In this document: positions 29,150 to 40,957 of the stretch, one piece after another | Layout: every line of letters starts with the position of its first letter | Numbering within the stretch: position 1 is the stretch's first letter | DNA from: an uncultured Planctomycetota bacterium | GTDB taxonomy: Bacteria > Planctomycetota > Phycisphaerae > Phycisphaerales > UBA5793 | Reading direction: 5' to 3' | NCBI GenBank assembly: GCA_900696685.1 | Contig: CAADHA010000129.1 | Span: 1-64,000 of the forward strand | Length of the DNA: 64,000 nt | Position numbers and translations under genes: made by a program | The notes under the pieces: generated by a model | What the model saw: only the letters and a program-made list of their open reading frames with translations | Told to the model about the DNA's origin: nothing | Databases searched by the model: none

Positions 29150-29376
29150 ACGCGGCTCCCGCCCACAGGGGCCGGAAGACAAAGATTCTCCCTGCTCTCA
29201 GGTATTGACCTGCTTTCATCTCGCCGATGGACATTCCTATAGTTGCGGATCGCTCGGCCTGCGAGGGCCGAACGACCGGACGACCCGACGGCCGTTCGAC
29301 CGCCTGCTCACCGTCCGGAGCCATCACCCGTTCATTTTCGAACCCGCACCGAACGCGCCGAAGGACGCTGCATTCC

Positions 29377-31281
29377 ATGAACAAGCCAGCCACGGAGGCG
29401 GTACATCACACCGGAACCGAAACACTCGAGAGCGCCGTCATCCGGTTCTGCGGCGACTCGGGCGACGGAATGCAGTTGACGGGAACGCAGTTCACAACGA
29501 CGAGCGCGATCTTCGGCAACGACGTGGCGACCTTCCCCGATTTCCCGGCCGAGATCCGCGCCCCGGCGGGCACTCTGCCGGGCGTGTCGGGATTCCAGGT
29601 CAACTTCGCCGCCACCGACATCTACACGCCCGGCGACAAGGTCGACGTCCTCGTCGCCATGAACCCCGCGGGCCTCAAGACCAACATCGCTGACCTGCGC
29701 GGGGGCGGCATTCTCATCGTCAACGAAGACGCCTTCAACACCAACAACCTCAAGAAGGCCGGCTACTCGCGCAACCCGCTCGATGACGGCTCGCTCAAGG
29801 ACTACAAACTCTACAGGATTCCGATCTCGCGCCTTTGCGAAGAATCTCTTGCCGACACCGGCATGGGCGCCAAGGCCATCGGCCGCGCCAAGAACATGTA
29901 CACGCTCGGCATCGTGTACTGGCTCTTTGACCGCTCGCTCGAGCCGACCATCCGCCACCTCACCGACCTCTTCGCGAAGAAGAAGAATCAGCCCGAACTG
30001 GCGGAACTGAACATCAAGGCGCTCAAGGCCGGCTACTACATGGGTGAGACGGCGGAGATGTTCCAGAACCGCTACGTCGTCCCCAAGGCGAAACTCACGC
30101 CGGGCAAGTACCGCCAGATCTCCGGCAACGAAGCGACGGCGCTGGGTCTCATCGCCGGCGCCCGCCTCGCAAAGAAAACGCTGACTTACGCCGGCTATCC
30201 CATCACGCCCGCTTCGGACATCCTCCACTTCCTCAGCGCGCATAAGAACTACCACGTCAAGACTCTGCAGATGGAAGATGAAATTGCGGCCGTGTGCGCC
30301 GCCATCGGCGCGTCATACACCGGCGACATCGCGGTCACGGGCACTTCAGGCCCCGGCATGGCGCTCAAGGGTGAAGGCATCGGCCTGGCCGTCATGACCG
30401 AACTGCCTCTGGTCATTGTCGACGTGCAGCGCGGCGGACCGAGCACCGGACTGCCCACCAAGACAGAACAGGCCGACCTCCTCCAGGCCGTCTACGGACG
30501 CAACAGCGAGTGCCCCTGCGTGGTGCTTGCGGCCAAGAGTCCGGGCGACTGCTTCGACGCGGCGGTCGAGGCCGTCCGCCTCGCCACGAAGTACATGACA
30601 CCGGTGATTCTTCTCACCGACGGGTACATCGCCAACGGCGCCGAGCCGTGGCTGCTGCCCAAGGTCAGCGCACTCAAGCCCATCGAAATCAAGCATCCAA
30701 CACAGTTCAACGCCCACAGCGACGAAGCAGAGGGCGAAGGCCCCAACACCTACTGGCCCTATCTCCGCAACGAGAATCTCGCTCGCCCGTGGGCCATCCC
30801 CGGCACCCCCAACCTCGAGCATCGCGTCGGCGGGCTGGAAAAGGCGGAGAACACCGGCAACGTCAGTTACGACCCGCTCAATCACCAGCGCATGGTCGAT
30901 CTGCGCCTCGCCAAGGTGAACAAGGTTGCGCAGGACATCCCTCCCACAGAGATTCAGGGCAACAAGAGCGGCGATGTGCTGCTCATCGGCTGGGGCGGAA
31001 CCTACGGCTCGATCCACGCCGCCACCGAGCGCCTGCTCAACCACGGTCACAAGGTCGGCACCGTCCACCTGCGCTACATCAATCCTCTGCCGCCCGATCT
31101 CGGCGACATCATCAAACGGTTCAGGACCATCATCGTGCCCGAACTGAACAAGGGGCAACTCATCCGCGTCATCCGCGATCGATTCCTCGTGAATGCGCAG
31201 GGCATCAACAAGGTGCAGGGCAAGCCCTTCCTCATCGCCGAACTTGTGGCCGAGGTTGAAAACTTCCTCTCGAAGAAGTAA
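29377..31281 (+). CDS. korA: 2-oxoacid:ferredoxin oxidoreductase gamma-alpha fused subunit
   Basis: 634 residues. The N-terminal gamma domain (about 15-205) starts IRFCGDSGDGMQLTG, then FPAEIRAPAGTLPGVSGFQ. The alpha domain follows (from about 255) with YAGYPITPASDILHFL, MEDEIAAVCAAIGASYTGD and GGPSTGLPTKTEQADL. With KorB it forms the 2-oxoglutarate (or other 2-oxoacid):ferredoxin oxidoreductase, making acyl-CoA, CO2 and reduced ferredoxin in the cytoplasm. The gamma-alpha fusion is the usual two-subunit form. korB starts 81 nt downstream. No gene for a small ferredoxin subunit lies next to it. Substrate assignment (2-oxoglutarate) rests on family resemblance. Confidence 0.92.
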   Translation: MNKPATEAVHHTGTETLESAVIRFCGDSGDGMQLTGTQFTTTSAIFGNDVATFPDFPAEIRAPAGTLPGVSGFQVNFAATDIYTPGDKVDVLVAMNPAGLKTNIADLRGGGILIVNEDAFNTNNLKKAGYSRNPLDDGSLKDYKLYRIPISRLCEESLADTGMGAKAIGRAKNMYTLGIVYWLFDRSLEPTIRHLTDLFAKKKNQPELAELNIKALKAGYYMGETAEMFQNRYVVPKAKLTPGKYRQISGNEATALGLIAGARLAKKTLTYAGYPITPASDILHFLSAHKNYHVKTLQMEDEIAAVCAAIGASYTGDIAVTGTSGPGMALKGEGIGLAVMTELPLVIVDVQRGGPSTGLPTKTEQADLLQAVYGRNSECPCVVLAAKSPGDCFDAAVEAVRLATKYMTPVILLTDGYIANGAEPWLLPKVSALKPIEIKHPTQFNAHSDEAEGEGPNTYWPYLRNENLARPWAIPGTPNLEHRVGGLEKAENTGNVSYDPLNHQRMVDLRLAKVNKVAQDIPPTEIQGNKSGDVLLIGWGGTYGSIHAATERLLNHGHKVGTVHLRYINPLPPDLGDIIKRFRTIIVPELNKGQLIRVIRDRFLVNAQGINKVQGKPFLIAELVAEVENFLSKK

Positions 31282-31362
31282 GTGCGGTCGCAGAGTCCAC
31301 GTCAATCGTCCACAGCAATCGGCCGTCGAACGGCCGGCCGAAAACCCGAATCGAGACCTCAC

Positions 31363-32388
31363 ATGACGCAGATCGAACTTCCCAAGTACTCCGCCAAGGA
31401 CTTCGCGACCGATCAGGAAGTGCGCTGGTGCCCGGGCTGCGGCGACTACGCCATCCTCGCCGCCGTGCGAAAGGTCCTCCCCGAACTCAACCACCGCAAG
31501 GAGAATTACGTCTTCGTGTCGGGCATCGGCTGTTCGAGCCGCTTCCCGTACTACATGGGAACCTACGGAATCCACGGGATTCACGGCCGCGCGCCCGCCA
31601 TCGCCACAGGCGTCAAGGCGGCCAACCCGAACCTCGACGTCTGGCTCGTCACGGGTGACGGCGACGGCCTCTCCATCGGCGGCAATCACCTCATGCACAC
31701 GCTCCGCCGGAACGTCAACGTCAAGATACTCCTCTTCAACAACCGAATCTACGGCTTGACCAAGGGGCAGTATTCCCCCACCAGCATCACCGGACACAAG
31801 ACCAAGTCCACGCCGATGGGCTCGATCGACCATCCGCTCCATCCCATCAGTTTTGCGATCGGAGTCGAGGCGACTTTCGTGGCGCGGTGCACCGACGTGA
31901 ACAAGGGCGGTCTGAACATCCTCGGCGACGTCCTCAAGGCCGCCGCCAATCACCGCGGCAGCGCGTTCGTCGAAATCTACCAGGACTGCAACGTCTTCAA
32001 TCACCAGGCCTTCTTCTACGCCACCGAGAAAGACACCGCCCGCGAGACGACCGTTCTCCTCGAACACGGAAAGCCGCTCATCTTCGGCAACAACCGCGAC
32101 AAGGGCATCCGCCTCAACTCCACGCGCCTCGAGGTCGTGAGCCTCGACAAGGTGAAGGAGGATGATCTGCTCTTCCACGATGAGACCGATCCGGCCCTGG
32201 CGTTTCTCCTCAGCCGCATGCACCACACGCAGGGCCTGCCCGAGCCGGTGGGCGTCTTCTACCGCATCAACAAGCCCACCTACGAAGACATGCTCTCGGA
32301 GCAGGTCGAGAAGTCGATCGCCAGCCGCGGAGAAGGCGACCTCGAAAAACTGCTCCACACCGGCGACACCTGGACCGTCGGGGAATAA
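31363..32388 (+). CDS. korB: 2-oxoacid:ferredoxin oxidoreductase beta subunit
   Basis: 341 residues. The TPP-binding and iron-sulfur subunit partners the KorA-like protein upstream. Visible features: RWCPGCGDYAIL with two cluster Cys, GIGCSSRFPYYMGTYGIHGIHGRAPAIATG, and the TPP/Mg motif VTGDGDGLSIGGNHLMHTLRRN followed by NNRIYGLTKGQYSPTS. A later Cys (DCNVFNHQAF) probably completes the cluster. Together they oxidise a 2-oxoacid, probably 2-oxoglutarate, with ferredoxin as acceptor. The start ATG 31363 has no strong ribosome site, but conservation begins right after it. Confidence 0.93.
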   Translation: MTQIELPKYSAKDFATDQEVRWCPGCGDYAILAAVRKVLPELNHRKENYVFVSGIGCSSRFPYYMGTYGIHGIHGRAPAIATGVKAANPNLDVWLVTGDGDGLSIGGNHLMHTLRRNVNVKILLFNNRIYGLTKGQYSPTSITGHKTKSTPMGSIDHPLHPISFAIGVEATFVARCTDVNKGGLNILGDVLKAAANHRGSAFVEIYQDCNVFNHQAFFYATEKDTARETTVLLEHGKPLIFGNNRDKGIRLNSTRLEVVSLDKVKEDDLLFHDETDPALAFLLSRMHHTQGLPEPVGVFYRINKPTYEDMLSEQVEKSIASRGEGDLEKLLHTGDTWTVGE

Positions 32389-33423: not shown

Positions 33424-34470
33424 TCATCGAAGTTGCTCTCGGATCAGCGTGGCACGGGCTTCCGCACGCTCAGCCTGGTGCAGCGATTCGCCAAGCGTCT
33501 TCTGGAGGTGAGCGGGCTGCACAAGCATGAGCAGGCGGTCGATGGTCCGCGGATCGACCCCCTCGATGCGCCCCAGCTGCACGCCCAGGCGCAGGTGGCT
33601 GAGAAGGCGCAGGGCTTCGTCGAGCTTGAGCAGGCGGGCGCTGCGGAGGATGCCCAGGGCGCGATGGACGCGGTCATCAAGAAGAGAAAGGCGGCGCTCG
33701 ACGAGCACGTGACGTGCACGGCGTTCGTACTCGACGACGCGCGGCATCACCCCTTCGTCGAACTCGCGGAGCAGTTGCGCTTCACTCTTGCCGAGCGTCG
33801 TCTGGTTGGAGATCTGGAAGATGTCGCCGAGCGCCTCGGACCCTTCGCCGTAGAAGCCGCGGATCGCCAGCTGCATGTCCTGCGCGGCGCGGCGGACTCG
33901 CTCAATCTCCTTGGTGAGCATCAGGGCGGGCAGGTGGAGCATGATGCTCAGGCGAATGCCCGTGCCCACGTTCGTCGGGCAGGCCGTGAGATAGCCGAAG
34001 CGCGAGTGAAACGCGAACGGGAGTTTCTCGCCGAGTTGATCGTCGATGCGGTTTACTTCCGCCCATGCGTCCGCGGCTCTGCGCCCGCTGCGGATGACCT
34101 GGATGCGGAAGTGGTCCTCCTCGTTGATCATCAGGGAGAAGGATTCGTCCCGGTTGACGACGGCGGCACGCGGCTGATCGCCGCGCGCGAGTTGCTTGGA
34201 GATGAGGTGGCGCTCGACGAGCAGGAGCGAGTCGAGCGCATCGAGGGACGCGACGTCGATCCAGAGGAGATCGCTGCGGCCGGCAAGGCCCAGGGCATGC
34301 TCGCGCGCGAGGGCGACGATCTGCTGCTTCTCGCCGCGGTCGGCGCGGTTCGCGAAGTTGAAGCCGGCGAGGTTGCGCGCGAGACGCACGCGCGTGGAGA
34401 TGACCACGTCGCCGTCGGGGCCGGTCCCGCGCAGCCATTCGCCCGTGGATGAATAGTCCAGGCCGATCAC
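33424..34470 (-). CDS. mcsB: Protein arginine kinase McsB
   Basis: 348-residue ATP:guanido phosphotransferase-fold kinase that phosphorylates protein arginines and marks proteins for ClpCP in Firmicutes. Key motifs are intact: DVVISTRVRLARNL, the nucleotide/guanidinium loop MINEEDHFRIQ, the Cys loop ACPTNVGTGIRLS, and GFYGEGSEALGDIFQISNQTTLG. The length equals the Firmicutes enzyme and lacks the N-terminal extension of metazoan arginine kinases. Its ATG overlaps the mcsA stop by 4 nt. No ctsR or clpC lies beside it, unlike the Bacillus operon, so the regulated targets are open. Confidence 0.93.
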   Translation of the reverse strand: MIGLDYSSTGEWLRGTGPDGDVVISTRVRLARNLAGFNFANRADRGEKQQIVALAREHALGLAGRSDLLWIDVASLDALDSLLLVERHLISKQLARGDQPRAAVVNRDESFSLMINEEDHFRIQVIRSGRRAADAWAEVNRIDDQLGEKLPFAFHSRFGYLTACPTNVGTGIRLSIMLHLPALMLTKEIERVRRAAQDMQLAIRGFYGEGSEALGDIFQISNQTTLGKSEAQLLREFDEGVMPRVVEYERRARHVLVERRLSLLDDRVHRALGILRSARLLKLDEALRLLSHLRLGVQLGRIEGVDPRTIDRLLMLVQPAHLQKTLGESLHQAERAEARATLIREQLR

Positions 34471-35012
34471 GACGGGGCAGCCTCCTCGCGATCGCCCGAC
34501 TCGGGGCCGTCCGCCGCCTCGCCGGCGGCGCTGAGATTGAGGAGCTGGTCCCTGATCTGGGCGGCCCTCTCGTACTGCTCGGCCGTGAGGGCCTGCGCCA
34601 GTTCCTTGCGCAGGTGGCTCAGACGAAGGGTAATGTCGAGATGAGCGCGCGCGGGCGTCTTGCCGACGTGATGAGTCGCACCCTCGTGAATGCGCTCAAG
34701 CAGCGGTTCGAGCAACTTCTCAAAGGCGGTGTAACACTCGGGGCAGCCGAGCAGGCTGTGCTCGCGGAACTCTCCCCACGTCAGGCCGCAGGAAGTGCAG
34801 GCCAGCGAAGCAGGCGACTTCCGCCGCCCGGTCTTGGCGAGAACAATCTGGCTGAGCAGTTCCTGGGCGCCCTTGACGACTTTTCCCTCGATTCCCAACT
34901 TGTGCGCGCACTGCTCACACAGGTGCGTCTCGGAGAGCACCTTGCCATGCGAGGGCGTGTACTCGTGAATCGTCGCCTCTTCACCGCAATGATCACAGCG
35001 ATGGCCATTCAT
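34467..35012 (-). CDS. mcsA: McsA-like zinc-finger activator of McsB
   Basis: 181 residues. Three Cys-pair sites are seen: CDHCGEEAT, LCEQCAHK and the double CTSCGLTW/GCPECYTAF, typical of McsA zinc fingers. A UvrB/UvrC-interaction motif lies near the C-terminus (LRKELAQALTAEQYERAAQIRDQL, about residues 133-157). McsA binds and stimulates the McsB kinase. The 4-nt overlap with mcsB indicates translational coupling and stoichiometric production. The acidic C-terminus (PESGDREEAAPS) is variable. It is divergent from the membrane-protein gene at 35132. Confidence 0.9.
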   Translation of the reverse strand: MNGHRCDHCGEEATIHEYTPSHGKVLSETHLCEQCAHKLGIEGKVVKGAQELLSQIVLAKTGRRKSPASLACTSCGLTWGEFREHSLLGCPECYTAFEKLLEPLLERIHEGATHHVGKTPARAHLDITLRLSHLRKELAQALTAEQYERAAQIRDQLLNLSAAGEAADGPESGDREEAAPS

Positions 35013-35131: not shown

Positions 35132-35959
35132 ATGTCTCTGCCGCTGGTGATGATCCTGCTTGTCCTCGGTATCCTGCTCGCCCAGGCGCTTTCAGACCCT
35201 CTGGCCGTTACCTTGCGCTGGCTGCGGCTTGGAGACCTGATCGCGCTGAGCCTGCTCGCACTGGCGGGCGCGGCGCTGGCGCTTGATGCCCCGCCGGGGG
35301 CTGGGGGCGCGCTGGCTCTCGGCTTGATCGTCGCCGGGATCGGCGCAGTCGCTCACCTGATGCTCGTGCAGACGGCCCATCGCCGCGCCCAGAGGCGCGT
35401 CGCCGGCGCAGCGGCCGCAGCCGTCGCCACGCTCCTGATCGTCCCGTGGTGCGCGGCTTCGCTGGCGCCCTACCGGGTGCTGGTCCTTGATGCAGCCGGC
35501 GATTCTCCGGCCGTGGCATTCCCGGCTTGCGAGCCTCTGATCGGCGCATGCCTCGTGCTGGCGGGCTGGCTGACGGGCGGTTCGCTCATGACCATGCTTC
35601 TCGGCCACGCCTACCTGACGGCCGGCAGCGAAATGACCCAGCGGCCGTTCCTGCGACTCGTGCGTCTGCTCTTCGCCGGTCTCGCGGTGCGCCTGCTGAT
35701 CGCGGGGGCGGCGGGTCTGTGGGGGTGGCTGGAAGGGCGATCCGAGCGAGGTCCCGCCGTCATGGAGGCCGTGCTCATCGGCGCGCGGTTTCTCATGGGA
35801 CTCATTGTCCCTCTCGTGATGACCTGGATGGCGATGCAGTGCGTGCGGCTGCGGTCCAACCAGTCCGCGACGGGGATTCTCTACGTTTCAAGCACGATGA
35901 TCCTGGTCGGCGAGTTCATCGCCCTGTCGCTGATCACAGCCCACCGCCTGCCCTTCTGA
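35132..35959 (+). CDS. Hypothetical multi-pass membrane protein
   Basis: 275 residues, almost entirely hydrophobic, with about eight predicted membrane helices and short charged loops (TAHRRAQRR about residue 85; EGRSERGP about 205). No motif is recognised. Its bias toward Leu/Ala/Gly and the even helix count are like small inner-membrane transport or scaffold proteins. It is divergent from mcsA (119 nt) and followed by the IOR-like gene after 100 nt on the same strand. The function is unknown. Confidence 0.65.
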   Translation: MSLPLVMILLVLGILLAQALSDPLAVTLRWLRLGDLIALSLLALAGAALALDAPPGAGGALALGLIVAGIGAVAHLMLVQTAHRRAQRRVAGAAAAAVATLLIVPWCAASLAPYRVLVLDAAGDSPAVAFPACEPLIGACLVLAGWLTGGSLMTMLLGHAYLTAGSEMTQRPFLRLVRLLFAGLAVRLLIAGAAGLWGWLEGRSERGPAVMEAVLIGARFLMGLIVPLVMTWMAMQCVRLRSNQSATGILYVSSTMILVGEFIALSLITAHRLPF

Positions 35960-36059: not shown

Positions 36060-39000
36060 TTGAGCGAAGCATCCTCAACCACAACCTGGAAGTCGCGGGC
36101 CAGGCGCGAGCGCGACCTGAGCGTGGGAGTGGACTGGCTGCTGCGGGGGGTGCTGGCAAGCGAAGCCGGCGTTGACCTGCTCCTCGCCTCGCGTGCCGAG
36201 CCAATTCCGGGCCTGAGCGAATCGCTGGCGCGCTTCCGCTCCGCATTGGACGATTCGGGCATCGGTACTGAAGTTGCGGAAAGCGACGCGATCATGGCGG
36301 GTCTGCTTCGCGCGGCGCTTCTGGCGCGAAGGCGTGTTATCGGGATGTTCGAGTTGCGCGGCCTGCGGCAGGCCGTCGATGCGCTCTATGACGCGAGCCA
36401 GATTCGCGTCAGCCCGCGAGGCGGCGGCGTGCTGGTCGTGAGCCACAGCCGGTGGAATTTCGGCCGCGTGCCCGATTCGCCGCGCCCGTCGAGCGGATGG
36501 CAGACGGTTCGCCGCACCAGCATCTCCGATCCACGCGACCTGGCCGCCTATCTCGATCTGCCGATCCTCGCGCCCAGCACACCGAGCCAGTGCGCTTCGA
36601 CCGTGAATGAGGCGATCCGTCTCTCACGGGCATCAGGCTCACTTGTAATGCTGTATGTCTCACCGGTGGTCATGGGAGGCGGAGAGACGGACGTCCACGT
36701 CGAGGAGCCGATTCACCGCGCAGGCGGCTCAGCCGGGGACCTGCGCAACGAAGAACGTGAGACGCCGCTGTTGAGCGAAATTCGCCGCAGGCGTCTTGAC
36801 CATCTCTCCAACGCTCCGCTGCCCGGCGAAGTGGTTCCATGGGGCTTCATCACCTTCGGCTCAGCGCATGCCTCGCTCCGCCACGCTCTGGCCCTGTTGG
36901 GATTGAGCGGCCGCCTGCCCATCCTCCGCCTCGGGTGCGTGAACCCCTTCGATCCGCTGCCGGTCGATCAGTTCCTTGGGCGCTGCGAGCGGGTCGTCGT
37001 GGTCGAGAATGGCCGCGCCTTCATTGAACAGGGAGTTCAACTGGTGGCCGAGCAGAAGCGCCGGCGCGGCCATCGCACGGCGGACGTATTCGGCAAGGCT
37101 CTGCCGGCGCTGGACGGCCGCGCACCGCGTGCGATTGCGAGCGAGATCGAGTTGCACCCGTCCGACCTCGCGGAGGCATTTGGCGAGATGCTCAGTGAAG
37201 AGCGCACCGCCGGAGGGCATGAGACTGTGGCCCAGAGGCTGGAATCTCTGCGAACCGCGAAGCCGGCAGTGGCGAGGCTGGTCCTCGAACGCTCTCGTCC
37301 GAAGGCACGCGAGCCGAATCTCATGCGCCCGCTGGTGGATGCGGCGATCGAACAGTTGCGCGATGAATTGAGTGTGGCCGTGTCCGACCGGTCGGCGACG
37401 GACCTGCGCGTCGAACCGCTCGAGACGGCGACGCTTGAGCGTCCCGAGGGCCGGCGGCAGATCATCGAGATGGAGCGCCGCCGCGTGCCGACCGTCGGCA
37501 GTTCTGCCATCACGCACGCTGTCCTCCGCCGCCACGACACGACGTTCCTCGTCATGCCCGACTCGACCGAGCGGTCCAGCGGCATTGAGCCCGCCGACGT
37601 TGATCGTCTGGCGCGCAGCATGGTCAGCGAGCGCGAGAGCAGGCAGTTGCGCATCGTCCGGACCGACCCGACCAACCTGCAGGCCTTTGTGCGCGACCTG
37701 CGTGCGGCCGTGCTTGCCGGCGGCGTGACAGTCGTGATCATCGACGCCCGGAGCGAGCGGCAGGCGGAGAATGTGGCCGGACCGTCGGCGCACTGGACGG
37801 AGCGCGGATTCGCGCCCGTTGAATCCACGGTGATTCCCTCCTCGCCCGGGGCGGCGCTGGCGTATGCGTGGCTCGTGCGACGGGGATGGACGCACACGGC
37901 GCTTCTTGACGGAGTGCATGGACCGCGCCTCCTGCAAGCCGACCCGGACAATCCGCTGACCACGCCGCTGGACGCCTGGCCCGGATTCGAGGAGTACCGC
38001 CTGCACCGGCGGCGGCCTCCGGACGGGGCGGGCCTGGCCTCCGCTCCACTGCCTCCACCGGCCGCGCCGCGCCACCAGCACGTCGCCGCATGGCACGCGC
38101 ACATCTGTGGGCGAAGCGAGCCCGACGTGGTGCAGGCCCTGCATCTGATCGAGTCGGCCGGCCGGCGCATGGGATATCGCGTCCAGGCGCTCAGCGGCCG
38201 TGCGGGTTCCGGCTGGTTCGCCCAGGTTACGTTCACCCGTCCACGACCGGACGAGGCGCCTCAGCCCATCACGGCGATCATTCCGTGGGGGCACGCGCAC
38301 CTCGTCGTCGCCCTTGACTTCGAGTCACTTGTTGATGCGATCGAGGGCGAAGGACGGCTTTCCGTCGCGTCGCCGCAGTGTACCTCGCTTGTGCTGGACG
38401 CATCGCCCGCAATCGCCGCGTCCTTCGACGAGAGCCTGCCATCGGGCCGATACATCGTGCCGGGCGAACTGAACTCGGTCATTCCGCCCGTGGAGAGGTT
38501 GACGCTGAGGTTGGGCGAACTGTGCGAAAGGCGGCTCAAGTCGCGCCGGCACGTGGGGGCGGCATTGGTGGGAGCGGCCTTCCAGCGGGGCCTGATCCCG
38601 GTGAGCGAGACAGTGCTTCACGACGCCGCTGCCTTGGAGGATGAGCATGGCTTGAGCCGCCAGGTGCATGCTCTCGCGTTCGGCCGCGCCCTCGCCGCCT
38701 TCGCGCCCGATCAGTCCGCCGCGGAAGAACCGACGCCTCCCAGCCCCGAATCCCTCGTGCGCCTTCACACGCGCATCATGTCCAGGCGGCGCTTCGCTCG
38801 CGCGCGGGCCGAGCCCTTTCGACAACTCGCGCTGGGGACCCTCGATGCGATCACGGGCCTGCGACGAACTGATCCTGCTCGCGTATCGGAGCGGCGCTTC
38901 ATTGCGCGCCTCATTGACTGCGACTACTGGGGCGGCCCAGCCGCGCCCCGGACCTATGCCCGTCTTGTCAGCGCCATCTACGCGGCCGAGCGCTCGCCCG

Positions 39001-39533
39001 CCAACTACCCGATTACGAGGCTGGCGATCGAGGAGATCGCGCGGGCGATGCTCGTGGCGGATGGGCCGTTCGTGGCGCAGACGGTTCTTCGCGAGGATCG
39101 GCGTCGTCGCCTGGGACGCGACCTCGGCGCCGATCGTGCCGGTGGCGACAGCCTCACGCTTCGCGTCCGAGGCGAGGTACGGCCTGCCTGGCTGGCGCCG
39201 CTCATCGGAGAGTACTGGTCCCTCGGCCGCGGTGGCCTCGCCGTGCTCGCCCTGCTCCGGCCATTGCGCCTGTTCCCCGCCTGGCACCGCAGAGACGGCG
39301 AGTACCGCAATTGGGTGCTCCAACTCGCCGCTCAATGCGCTGACGACCTTCCCGAGCGGGCCTCGCTCTGGCTTGAGATCTTCAGGCAACTGACGCGTGT
39401 GCGCGGCCACGGCGTGCGGCGCGAGGTGCGCATCCGTCACGTGCGTTCGGCCGTTCAGTCGATTCTCGACCTCGCCGGTCCATCGCCCAGGCCTGCAGCG
39501 CGTCCGCCCGACTCCCCTGCACCGCCGGCGTAA
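36060..39533 (+). CDS. Degenerate indolepyruvate:ferredoxin oxidoreductase-like protein
   Basis: 1157 residues that fit the domain order of a fused IorA-IorB enzyme but lack its catalytic motifs. Residues about 15-215 resemble the IorA pyrimidine-binding domain (DLPILAPSTPSQCASTVNEA); about 285-345 match its C-terminal domain (LGCVNPFDPLPVDQF, VVVVENGRAFIEQGVQ). The TPP domain is reduced, without a GDG motif or CPGCPHR cysteines (remnant GGVTVVIIDARSE about 553-566). About 670-860 resemble the gamma/IorB domain with GGQG replaced by GRSEPD. The C-terminal 250 residues resemble the DUF6537 extension of large IORs (VRGHGVRREV). The start is TTG 36060 with GGAG seven bases upstream. It is probably a pseudoenzyme or a repurposed protein. 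Confidence 0.65.
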   Translation: MSEASSTTTWKSRARRERDLSVGVDWLLRGVLASEAGVDLLLASRAEPIPGLSESLARFRSALDDSGIGTEVAESDAIMAGLLRAALLARRRVIGMFELRGLRQAVDALYDASQIRVSPRGGGVLVVSHSRWNFGRVPDSPRPSSGWQTVRRTSISDPRDLAAYLDLPILAPSTPSQCASTVNEAIRLSRASGSLVMLYVSPVVMGGGETDVHVEEPIHRAGGSAGDLRNEERETPLLSEIRRRRLDHLSNAPLPGEVVPWGFITFGSAHASLRHALALLGLSGRLPILRLGCVNPFDPLPVDQFLGRCERVVVVENGRAFIEQGVQLVAEQKRRRGHRTADVFGKALPALDGRAPRAIASEIELHPSDLAEAFGEMLSEERTAGGHETVAQRLESLRTAKPAVARLVLERSRPKAREPNLMRPLVDAAIEQLRDELSVAVSDRSATDLRVEPLETATLERPEGRRQIIEMERRRVPTVGSSAITHAVLRRHDTTFLVMPDSTERSSGIEPADVDRLARSMVSERESRQLRIVRTDPTNLQAFVRDLRAAVLAGGVTVVIIDARSERQAENVAGPSAHWTERGFAPVESTVIPSSPGAALAYAWLVRRGWTHTALLDGVHGPRLLQADPDNPLTTPLDAWPGFEEYRLHRRRPPDGAGLASAPLPPPAAPRHQHVAAWHAHICGRSEPDVVQALHLIESAGRRMGYRVQALSGRAGSGWFAQVTFTRPRPDEAPQPITAIIPWGHAHLVVALDFESLVDAIEGEGRLSVASPQCTSLVLDASPAIAASFDESLPSGRYIVPGELNSVIPPVERLTLRLGELCERRLKSRRHVGAALVGAAFQRGLIPVSETVLHDAAALEDEHGLSRQVHALAFGRALAAFAPDQSAAEEPTPPSPESLVRLHTRIMSRRRFARARAEPFRQLALGTLDAITGLRRTDPARVSERRFIARLIDCDYWGGPAAPRTYARLVSAIYAAERSPANYPITRLAIEEIARAMLVADGPFVAQTVLREDRRRRLGRDLGADRAGGDSLTLRVRGEVRPAWLAPLIGEYWSLGRGGLAVLALLRPLRLFPAWHRRDGEYRNWVLQLAAQCADDLPERASLWLEIFRQLTRVRGHGVRREVRIRHVRSAVQSILDLAGPSPRPAARPPDSPAPPA

Positions 39534-39625
39534 GTCGCGTGCCGGTGTGCCTCGCCCCTGCGGGGTTCGCTGTGCCTCGTCCCCTGCCGTCACGAGCATG
39601 TCGGGGCATCGTGTCATCTGAGATC

Positions 39626-40957
39626 ATGGGAATGTGGCCACAGGCGCGGCGGACCCGTTGCCTCGATCCCTTCCCGCCGCACGGCTATCATTCTTCGACC
39701 TGCCGTCAAGGAGGGCAGAGTCGTCGCCCCGTCATCCTGCGCAACGATGTCGATCGCAGCGTCGAAGCACTGACGCGGGCGGGCTTCAAATCCGTACCGG
39801 CAACCGGATACATGACGACCTTCACGGGCATTCTCGAATGGCCCCAGCGTGGTGATGGACGACTCCGTCAACTCAACGGGATGTTGATGGAGCGTCCTGA
39901 TGACCCGATCGTTCCCATGGTGCTCGGCGAGCGCTTCCCGCTTCGTTCGGCCCAGGAATTGACGGTCGAGGTGGCCATGCGCAGGCCGCGCCGGCGGCGC
40001 GGCCGCAACCGCGGCCCCAACGCCCCGCCGCGTACCGCCCGCCCCATTGTCGAGCGAGTGGTCGCGATCGACGGACTCGAGCCGGAGATCTACGCCAAAC
40101 GGCCGACGTTCGAACAACTCACCTCGATCGATCCCCAGCCGCGGCTGACGCTTGAGTATCCCGGCTGCCCGCCGGCCAACCGGCTTATCGATCTCTTCTG
40201 CCCGATCGGCTATGGAACGCGCGGGCTGGTCGTCTCGCCTCCCAAGGCCGGCAAGACCACCCTCCTTCAGCAGATCTGCCACGGCATCGCACACAACTAT
40301 CCCGATGTGCACATCATCGCCCTGCTCATCGACGAGCGGCCGGAGGAAGTGACGGATTTTCGCCGCAACGTCCCCTGCCTTTGCCTCGCCTCGAGCAACG
40401 ACCAGGACACGGAGCGGCACGTCAACCTTGCCATCTTCGCCATCGAGCGCGCCAAGCGAATGCTCGAATCAGGCAAGGATGTCGTCGTGCTGCTGGACTC
40501 GCTCACGCGCATGGGCCGGGCATTCAACGCCTCGCGCTCGCACGCCAGTTCCGGCCGCACCATGTCCGGCGGTCTTGACTCGCGGGCGCTCGAAGTGCCC
40601 AAGCGGCTCTTCGGCGCCGCCCGCAAGGCGGAAGAAGGCGGGTCGCTCACCATCATCGCTTCGTGCCTCGTCGACACCGGCTCGCAGGCGGACCAGATCA
40701 TCTTCGAGGAGTTCAAGGGCACGGGCAACATGGAACTCATCCTCGACCGTGACGTGGCTGAGAAGCGCATCTTTCCCGCCATGAACCTCGCCGCTTCGGG
40801 CACGCGCAAGGAGCACCTCCTGCTCACCCCCAAGGAACTCACGACGATCACGGCACTGCGCCGCTCACTTCTCAACATGCCCCCCCCGATGCAGATCGAA
40901 CGCCTGCTCGCCGCGATGGAACGTATGCCGACCAACGCGCAACTTGTCGGCGAGTGA
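39626..40957 (+). CDS. rho: Transcription termination factor Rho
   Basis: About 443 residues. RNA-dependent hexameric ATPase that ends transcripts. The primary RNA site is the OB-fold FTGILEWPQRGDGRLRQL. The ATPase core holds Walker A VVSPPKAGKTTLLQQI, LIDERPEEVTDF, the Q-loop-region NLAIFAIERAKRMLE, Walker B DVVVLLDSLTRMGRAFN, and the R-loop region LIIASCLVDTGSQADQIIFEEFKGTGN. Between the OB fold and the ATPase lies a basic insertion (RRPRRRRGRNRGPNAPPRTARP). The helical N-terminal domain looks short or absent. The start is unclear: ATGs at 39626, 39632 and 39812 are all possible; the conserved part begins near 39812. Confidence 0.92.
   Translation: MGMWPQARRTRCLDPFPPHGYHSSTCRQGGQSRRPVILRNDVDRSVEALTRAGFKSVPATGYMTTFTGILEWPQRGDGRLRQLNGMLMERPDDPIVPMVLGERFPLRSAQELTVEVAMRRPRRRRGRNRGPNAPPRTARPIVERVVAIDGLEPEIYAKRPTFEQLTSIDPQPRLTLEYPGCPPANRLIDLFCPIGYGTRGLVVSPPKAGKTTLLQQICHGIAHNYPDVHIIALLIDERPEEVTDFRRNVPCLCLASSNDQDTERHVNLAIFAIERAKRMLESGKDVVVLLDSLTRMGRAFNASRSHASSGRTMSGGLDSRALEVPKRLFGAARKAEEGGSLTIIASCLVDTGSQADQIIFEEFKGTGNMELILDRDVAEKRIFPAMNLAASGTRKEHLLLTPKELTTITALRRSLLNMPPPMQIERLLAAMERMPTNAQLVGE

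Follow-up and report, generated by a model that had tools for sequence, protein, structure and literature searches.

A full-length homolog of large fused IORs without catalytic motifs in Phycisphaerales: a probable conserved pseudoenzyme

Large fused indolepyruvate ferredoxin oxidoreductases (IORs; NCBIfam PRK13030/PRK13029) are single chains of about 1200 amino acids with the domain order I-II-beta-gamma-DUF6537. The protein described here, encoded in the window (the whole stretch of 64,000 nucleotides that was analyzed), has the same length and domain order, but it lacks the TPP motif, the Fe-S cysteines and the glycine-rich gamma loop, and its beta domain is shortened. In the two-subunit IORs (IorA, TIGR03336; IorB, TIGR03334), IorA resembles the domain II region of the window protein (E 2e-9), whereas the window protein is a single, fused chain that is extended by DUF6537 and lacks catalytic motifs. 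Among solved structures, the best match is the PFOR of Moorella thermoacetica (6CIN), the cofactor sites of which are missing from the window protein. Pseudoenzymes are, in general, catalytically dead paralogs retained for binding or regulation, and they share with the window protein a kept fold, lost catalytic residues and purifying selection. Unlike the usual pseudoenzymes, the dead IOR stands alone in most genomes tested, with no active paralog beside it, and exceeds 1100 residues. Metabolic enzymes of a thousand residues are costly, and loss of catalysis normally means loss of the gene. A search of the literature on IOR pseudoenzymes, DUF6537 and planctomycete IORs returned nothing relevant.

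The gene has the following layout. Its start is supported by the five same-genus homologs, each of which starts at this position, with TTG or GTG as the codon.

36060..39533, plus strand: pseudo-IOR gene, full length, 1157 aa, TTG start, intact frame
36060..36755, plus strand: domain I, POR_N-like, the former TPP pyrimidine-side domain (alignment and AlphaFold model; limits approximate)
36756..37259, plus strand: domain II, transketolase-C-like, the domain closest to intact IORs (about 35% identity)
37260..38039, plus strand: former beta domain (TPP_enzyme_C and Fe-S), eroded (alignment, separate model and Foldseek)
37311..37334, plus strand: EPNLMRPL at the site of CPGCPHRD, the proximal Fe-S/TPP motif (alignment)
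37371..37409, plus strand: the 13 residues left of the 37-residue TPP segment that carries HGDTGC (segment-length comparison)
37473..37481, plus strand: ERR at the site of GDG, the TPP-Mg motif (alignment)
37848..37889, plus strand: GAALAYAWLVRRGW at the site of the ferredoxin-type VCEMCLECTTQTGC (alignment)
38040..38699, plus strand: gamma (IorB/POR) domain, retained (conservation and alignment)
38109..38126, plus strand: GRSEPD at the site of the GVGGMG loop of the gamma domain (alignment)
38700..39533, plus strand: C-terminal DUF6537-like helical domain (Pfam and AlphaFold model)

Single-sequence searches of genome contigs and PDB sequences gave no useful match, and profiles were required. 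The NCBIfam search returned PRK13030 with an E-value of 1e-16 and a score of 60 bits, below the cut-off of 816 bits; an intact IOR of the same order, with 464 bits, does not reach this cut-off either, which is therefore strict here. In Pfam, DUF6537 was the sole match (E 7e-5, under its gathering cut-off), and neither Pfam nor NCBIfam gave any match other than weak IOR ones. When the profile of the window's family was aligned with that of intact same-order IORs by HHalign, the result was 100% and an E-value of 2e-81 over 1073 columns, with a match running from end to end. Judged from these profiles, the homology of the window protein to large fused IORs is beyond chance, and the IOR domain order noted earlier for its 1157 residues holds. 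The AlphaFold model had a mean pLDDT of 79 and a pTM of 0.74, the input alignments including intact IORs, which may bias it towards the IOR fold. A structural comparison, proposed as a check in the earlier note, placed the PFOR 6CIN first (E 3e-13); the whole-chain TM of about 0.34 is presumably low due to the differing domain order. The former beta domain, modelled in isolation, matched weakly, the best Foldseek result being the OFOR beta subunit 5b48_B (E 2e-4, TM 0.35). The models thus predict that the IOR/PFOR fold is kept, with an eroded beta domain.

Scanning of the window protein for GDG, CxxC, CxxCxxC and GxGGxG revealed none of these motifs, and its eight cysteines are scattered; the earlier note had stated this for GDG, CxxCxxC and the scattered cysteines. 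Alignment with 10 intact same-order IORs showed what stands in their place: CPGCPHRD is replaced by EPNLMRPL, MGDGTF by MERRRV, GVGGMGIG by GRSEPDVV and VCEMCLECTTQTGC by GAALAYAWLVRRGW, and in domain I TGYPGSP reads ASRAEPIPG and NNEA reads ESDA, the glutamate of NNEA being replaced. The CxxCxxC and C...C...C cluster cysteines have all been substituted. The TPP segment carrying HGDTGC comprises 37 residues in intact IORs and 13 in the window protein (24 deleted). Thus, the sites that mark an active IOR, namely GDG with HGDTGC, the Fe-S cysteines and the GxGGxG loop, are all missing, and the window protein would not be expected to perform IOR catalysis. The earlier note was right in placing GRSEPD at the gamma loop, but not in giving GGQG as the original motif, as the intact relatives have GVGGMG.

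In the following, genomes are coded by family (f) and genus (g), the window being f1/g1. The survey covered 301 genomes of the order, and a homolog was found in six of six f1 genomes and in 115 of 117 f3 genomes (the latter counted by hand from the listing). The titled relatives are uncultured Phycisphaerales/Planctomycetota MAGs, many of them from lakes and the ocean. All catalytic motifs are missing in every f1 and f3 homolog aligned, which agrees with the earlier suggestion of a pseudoenzyme conserved in this lineage. The codon pattern for CPGCPHRD occurred in none of the 123 f1 and f3 genomes; it was found in 32 further genomes of the order, almost all of them from f5 or f6. With an intact-IOR query, no intact large IOR was found in six f1 and 16 f3 genomes; among these 22, only G005, of the second f1 genus, has ordinary IorA-type proteins (about 850 aa). 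In G005, the pseudo-IOR itself is split by an apparent frameshift at the boundary of the gamma and C-terminal domains (L035:10343-10435), which may reflect either gene fission or an assembly error.

Homologs that retain the motifs do exist, but they belong to other families, both of the order and of the wider class. All 16 IORs sampled from other families of the class have intact motifs (some with GDS instead of GDG), from which it follows that the ancestral state had the motifs and that they were lost; the existence of such homologs does not make the window protein an active IOR. The GDA and GDS variants, found in some f6 and outgroup IORs, are used by other TPP enzymes and were not classed as dead. 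In three f6 copies (L096, L118 and L095), all Fe-S cysteines are present, but GDG is replaced by GAA, GQG or GDV; in L096 (GAATF) and L118 (GQGTF), the Mg-binding Asp is missing while the cluster cysteines are present. Judging by these residues, the three copies are possible intermediates in the loss of TPP chemistry.

We next consider how many times the motifs disappeared. The f1 and f3 copies share the shortened TPP segment (12–19 residues in f3) and several derived residues (P255, R308, H681 and R702), which argues for one common loss in these families. In genus g20 of f6, the motifs are also lost, but the full segment of 37 residues is kept. The possibility that a single ancient loss, or an ancient paralog, lies behind all dead copies including those of g20 draws on the rooted IOR protein tree, which unites g20 with f1 and f3 (SH-aLRT 99), and on the AU test, which rejects g20 with g38 (p 1e-4). 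The branches of the dead copies are all long, however, so that long-branch attraction is to be expected and the grouping is unsafe. In the rpoB tree, g20 lies inside f6 as the sister of g38, the IOR of which is intact, and the g20 gene still faces, head-to-head, the KAS II-like gene that accompanies the intact f6 IORs; the deletion shared by f1 and f3 is not found in it. Because of its rpoB position and its kept neighbor, g20 probably lost the motifs independently and in place, and a single loss, although it deserves serious attention, appears unlikely. Across f6, the KAS II-like gene and the IOR gene form a divergent pair, whether the IOR is intact or dead (L052, L054, L055, L060, L061 and about 20 further loci), hinting that lipid or polyketide synthesis there receives acyl-CoA from the IOR.

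Within species groups, pairwise dN/dS was 0.07–0.23 in the window's genus and 0.05–0.17 in most f3 pairs, which is near the values of intact IORs; g20 is looser (0.35–0.38). Constraint acts on all of the domains, and the former beta domain is no exception. The distribution of the constraint has shifted. In intact IORs, conservation is highest in domains I and beta (0.74 identity each), and the f3 copies are most conserved in domains II and gamma, with 0.47 each versus 0.37 and 0.35 for domains I and beta. The invariant residues of the gamma domain are H672, G684, A700-G701, G705, Q842, G844, P847 and G875-R876. In the window's genus, the best conserved domain is beta (0.79), and thus it is more than a mere relic.

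The most serious rival to a pseudoenzyme is a new enzyme with an unrecognized active site, in the gamma domain or a rebuilt beta domain, that catalyzes a different, TPP-independent reaction. The conservation of beta in the window's genus would fit such an enzyme, as would a conserved GxRGxxPG loop in the f3 copies and the residues that, compared with intact IORs, have newly become fixed in f1 and f3 (P255, R308, H681 and R702, together with R830), some of which lie near the gamma loop. Nevertheless, the protein has no recognizable catalytic triad, metal site or nucleotide motif, Pfam and NCBIfam gave nothing but the weak IOR matches, and the new loop is not common to f1, f3 and g20. We therefore regard a new enzyme as improbable.

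The genes around the pseudo-IOR were compared between the families. In all six f1 genomes, the order is a xylose-isomerase-like TIM-barrel gene, mcsB and mcsA (all on the minus strand), followed by the membrane protein gene, the pseudo-IOR and rho (plus strand). The window contains:

29227-32388: KorAB pair, ending 3.7 kb upstream of the pseudo-IOR, CPGC and GDG kept
33424-35012, minus strand: McsB/McsA arginine kinase pair, conserved beside the pseudo-IOR in f1
35132..35959, plus strand: gene for a 275-aa protein with eight predicted TM segments and no Pfam match, directly upstream in six of six f1 genomes
39539..40957, plus strand: Rho termination factor (maximal ORF, the true start probably further in), downstream in six of six f1 genomes

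The 275-aa membrane protein is a possible operon partner of the pseudo-IOR. A relative of its gene is present in G014 (f6); otherwise the gene is confined to f1, and it was absent from the six f3 genomes searched, which weakens its case as a general partner. The f3 neighbors are rluD, a repeat protein, sometimes a HAD hydrolase, and then rlmN and ispH, some of these being names that we assigned from our own reading of the sequences. The Cof-type HAD hydrolase was likewise rejected as a partner, as it was not found beside the f1 gene. The neighbors thus differ between f1, f3 and g20, and no common partner gene emerges from the three neighborhoods.

The KorAB pair that the earlier note had reported nearby is a true one. 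In its KorA ORF (29227-31281), about 70 additional residues at the N-terminus precede the family match, and the true start is probably internal. The proximity of an intact KorAB raises the possibility of a mixed complex, in which KorAB or another OFOR would supply the TPP and Fe-S centers to the pseudo-IOR. KorAB was not found, however, in the 19-kb regions that surround the pseudo-IOR of the other f1 genomes, nor in the f3, f5 and f6 loci, so it lies outside the conserved neighborhood and a functional link between the two is weakened. As the TPP-facing halves of domains I and beta are both altered, no composite site is apparent either, and such a complex is very improbable. That the gene is a decaying pseudogene or a spurious high-GC ORF, as the high GC and long antisense ORFs of the window and the split G005 copy might suggest, is scarcely credible and was dropped, because dN/dS is far below 1 (0.05–0.23) with all domains constrained, as the earlier note had anticipated of an intact frame under selection, the frames are intact in nearly all of more than 100 genomes, and start and synteny are conserved.

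In the reading that we prefer, the window protein is a conserved pseudoenzyme that descends, at full length and by vertical inheritance, from a large fused IOR and whose body has been kept for a non-catalytic job; from the sequence comparisons, we consider this probable. A large fused IOR ancestor would have lost TPP and Fe-S binding, and with them the oxidation of 2-oxoacids by the IOR route. The loss was probably permitted, judging from genome content, by replacement enzymes: branched-chain 2-oxoacid dehydrogenases and KorAB may have taken over the chemistry. In g20, the pseudo-IOR is followed on the same strand by a fusion protein of 1150–1180 aa, a 2-oxoacid dehydrogenase with the FabH-like KAS III:

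L060:4475-8011, minus strand: E1alpha-E1beta-lipoyl-KAS III fusion, directly downstream of the g20 pseudo-IOR
L061:10764-14222, plus strand: E1alpha-E1beta-lipoyl-KAS III fusion, directly downstream of the g20 pseudo-IOR

The fusion also occurs in the f6 genera g7, g16, g28 and g36. Within f6, it was present in 8 of the 16 genomes that lack a fully canonical IOR versus 0 of the 21 that have one (Fisher p 3e-4, uncorrected for phylogeny). In a first panel, the E1beta-type proteins of f1, f2, f3 and f4 outscored those of the f5/f6 genomes with intact IORs; in a wider f6 panel, some genomes with an intact IOR also held such E1-type dehydrogenases. That another dehydrogenase relieved the IOR of its role is thus suggestive only.

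What the pseudoenzyme would have kept is a folded body around domain II and the gamma domain, against which counts that in the window's genus beta, and not II and gamma, is the best conserved. The old intersubunit and gamma-loop surfaces could bind another protein as a partner, or else an anionic metabolite, for example a 2-oxoacid or an acyl-CoA, and a role as a scaffold or sensor of this kind is a reasonable, if tentative, candidate. Somewhat more doubtful is the wider proposal that a second, non-catalytic function belonged to large IORs from the beginning, so that once oxidation is replaced the catalytic center dissolves and the protein stays; at least two parallel cases, the f1/f3 ancestor and g20, would then have led to a family-wide stand-alone pseudoenzyme.

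Annotation pipelines that label such genes as IOR would predict a reaction that the cells presumably cannot perform. In a family of abundant plankton from lakes and the ocean, the dead IOR is near-universal, and it is the sole IOR in the genomes tested there. A dead IOR that stands alone would make a hidden function of large IORs, in their DUF6537 and gamma domains, directly testable.
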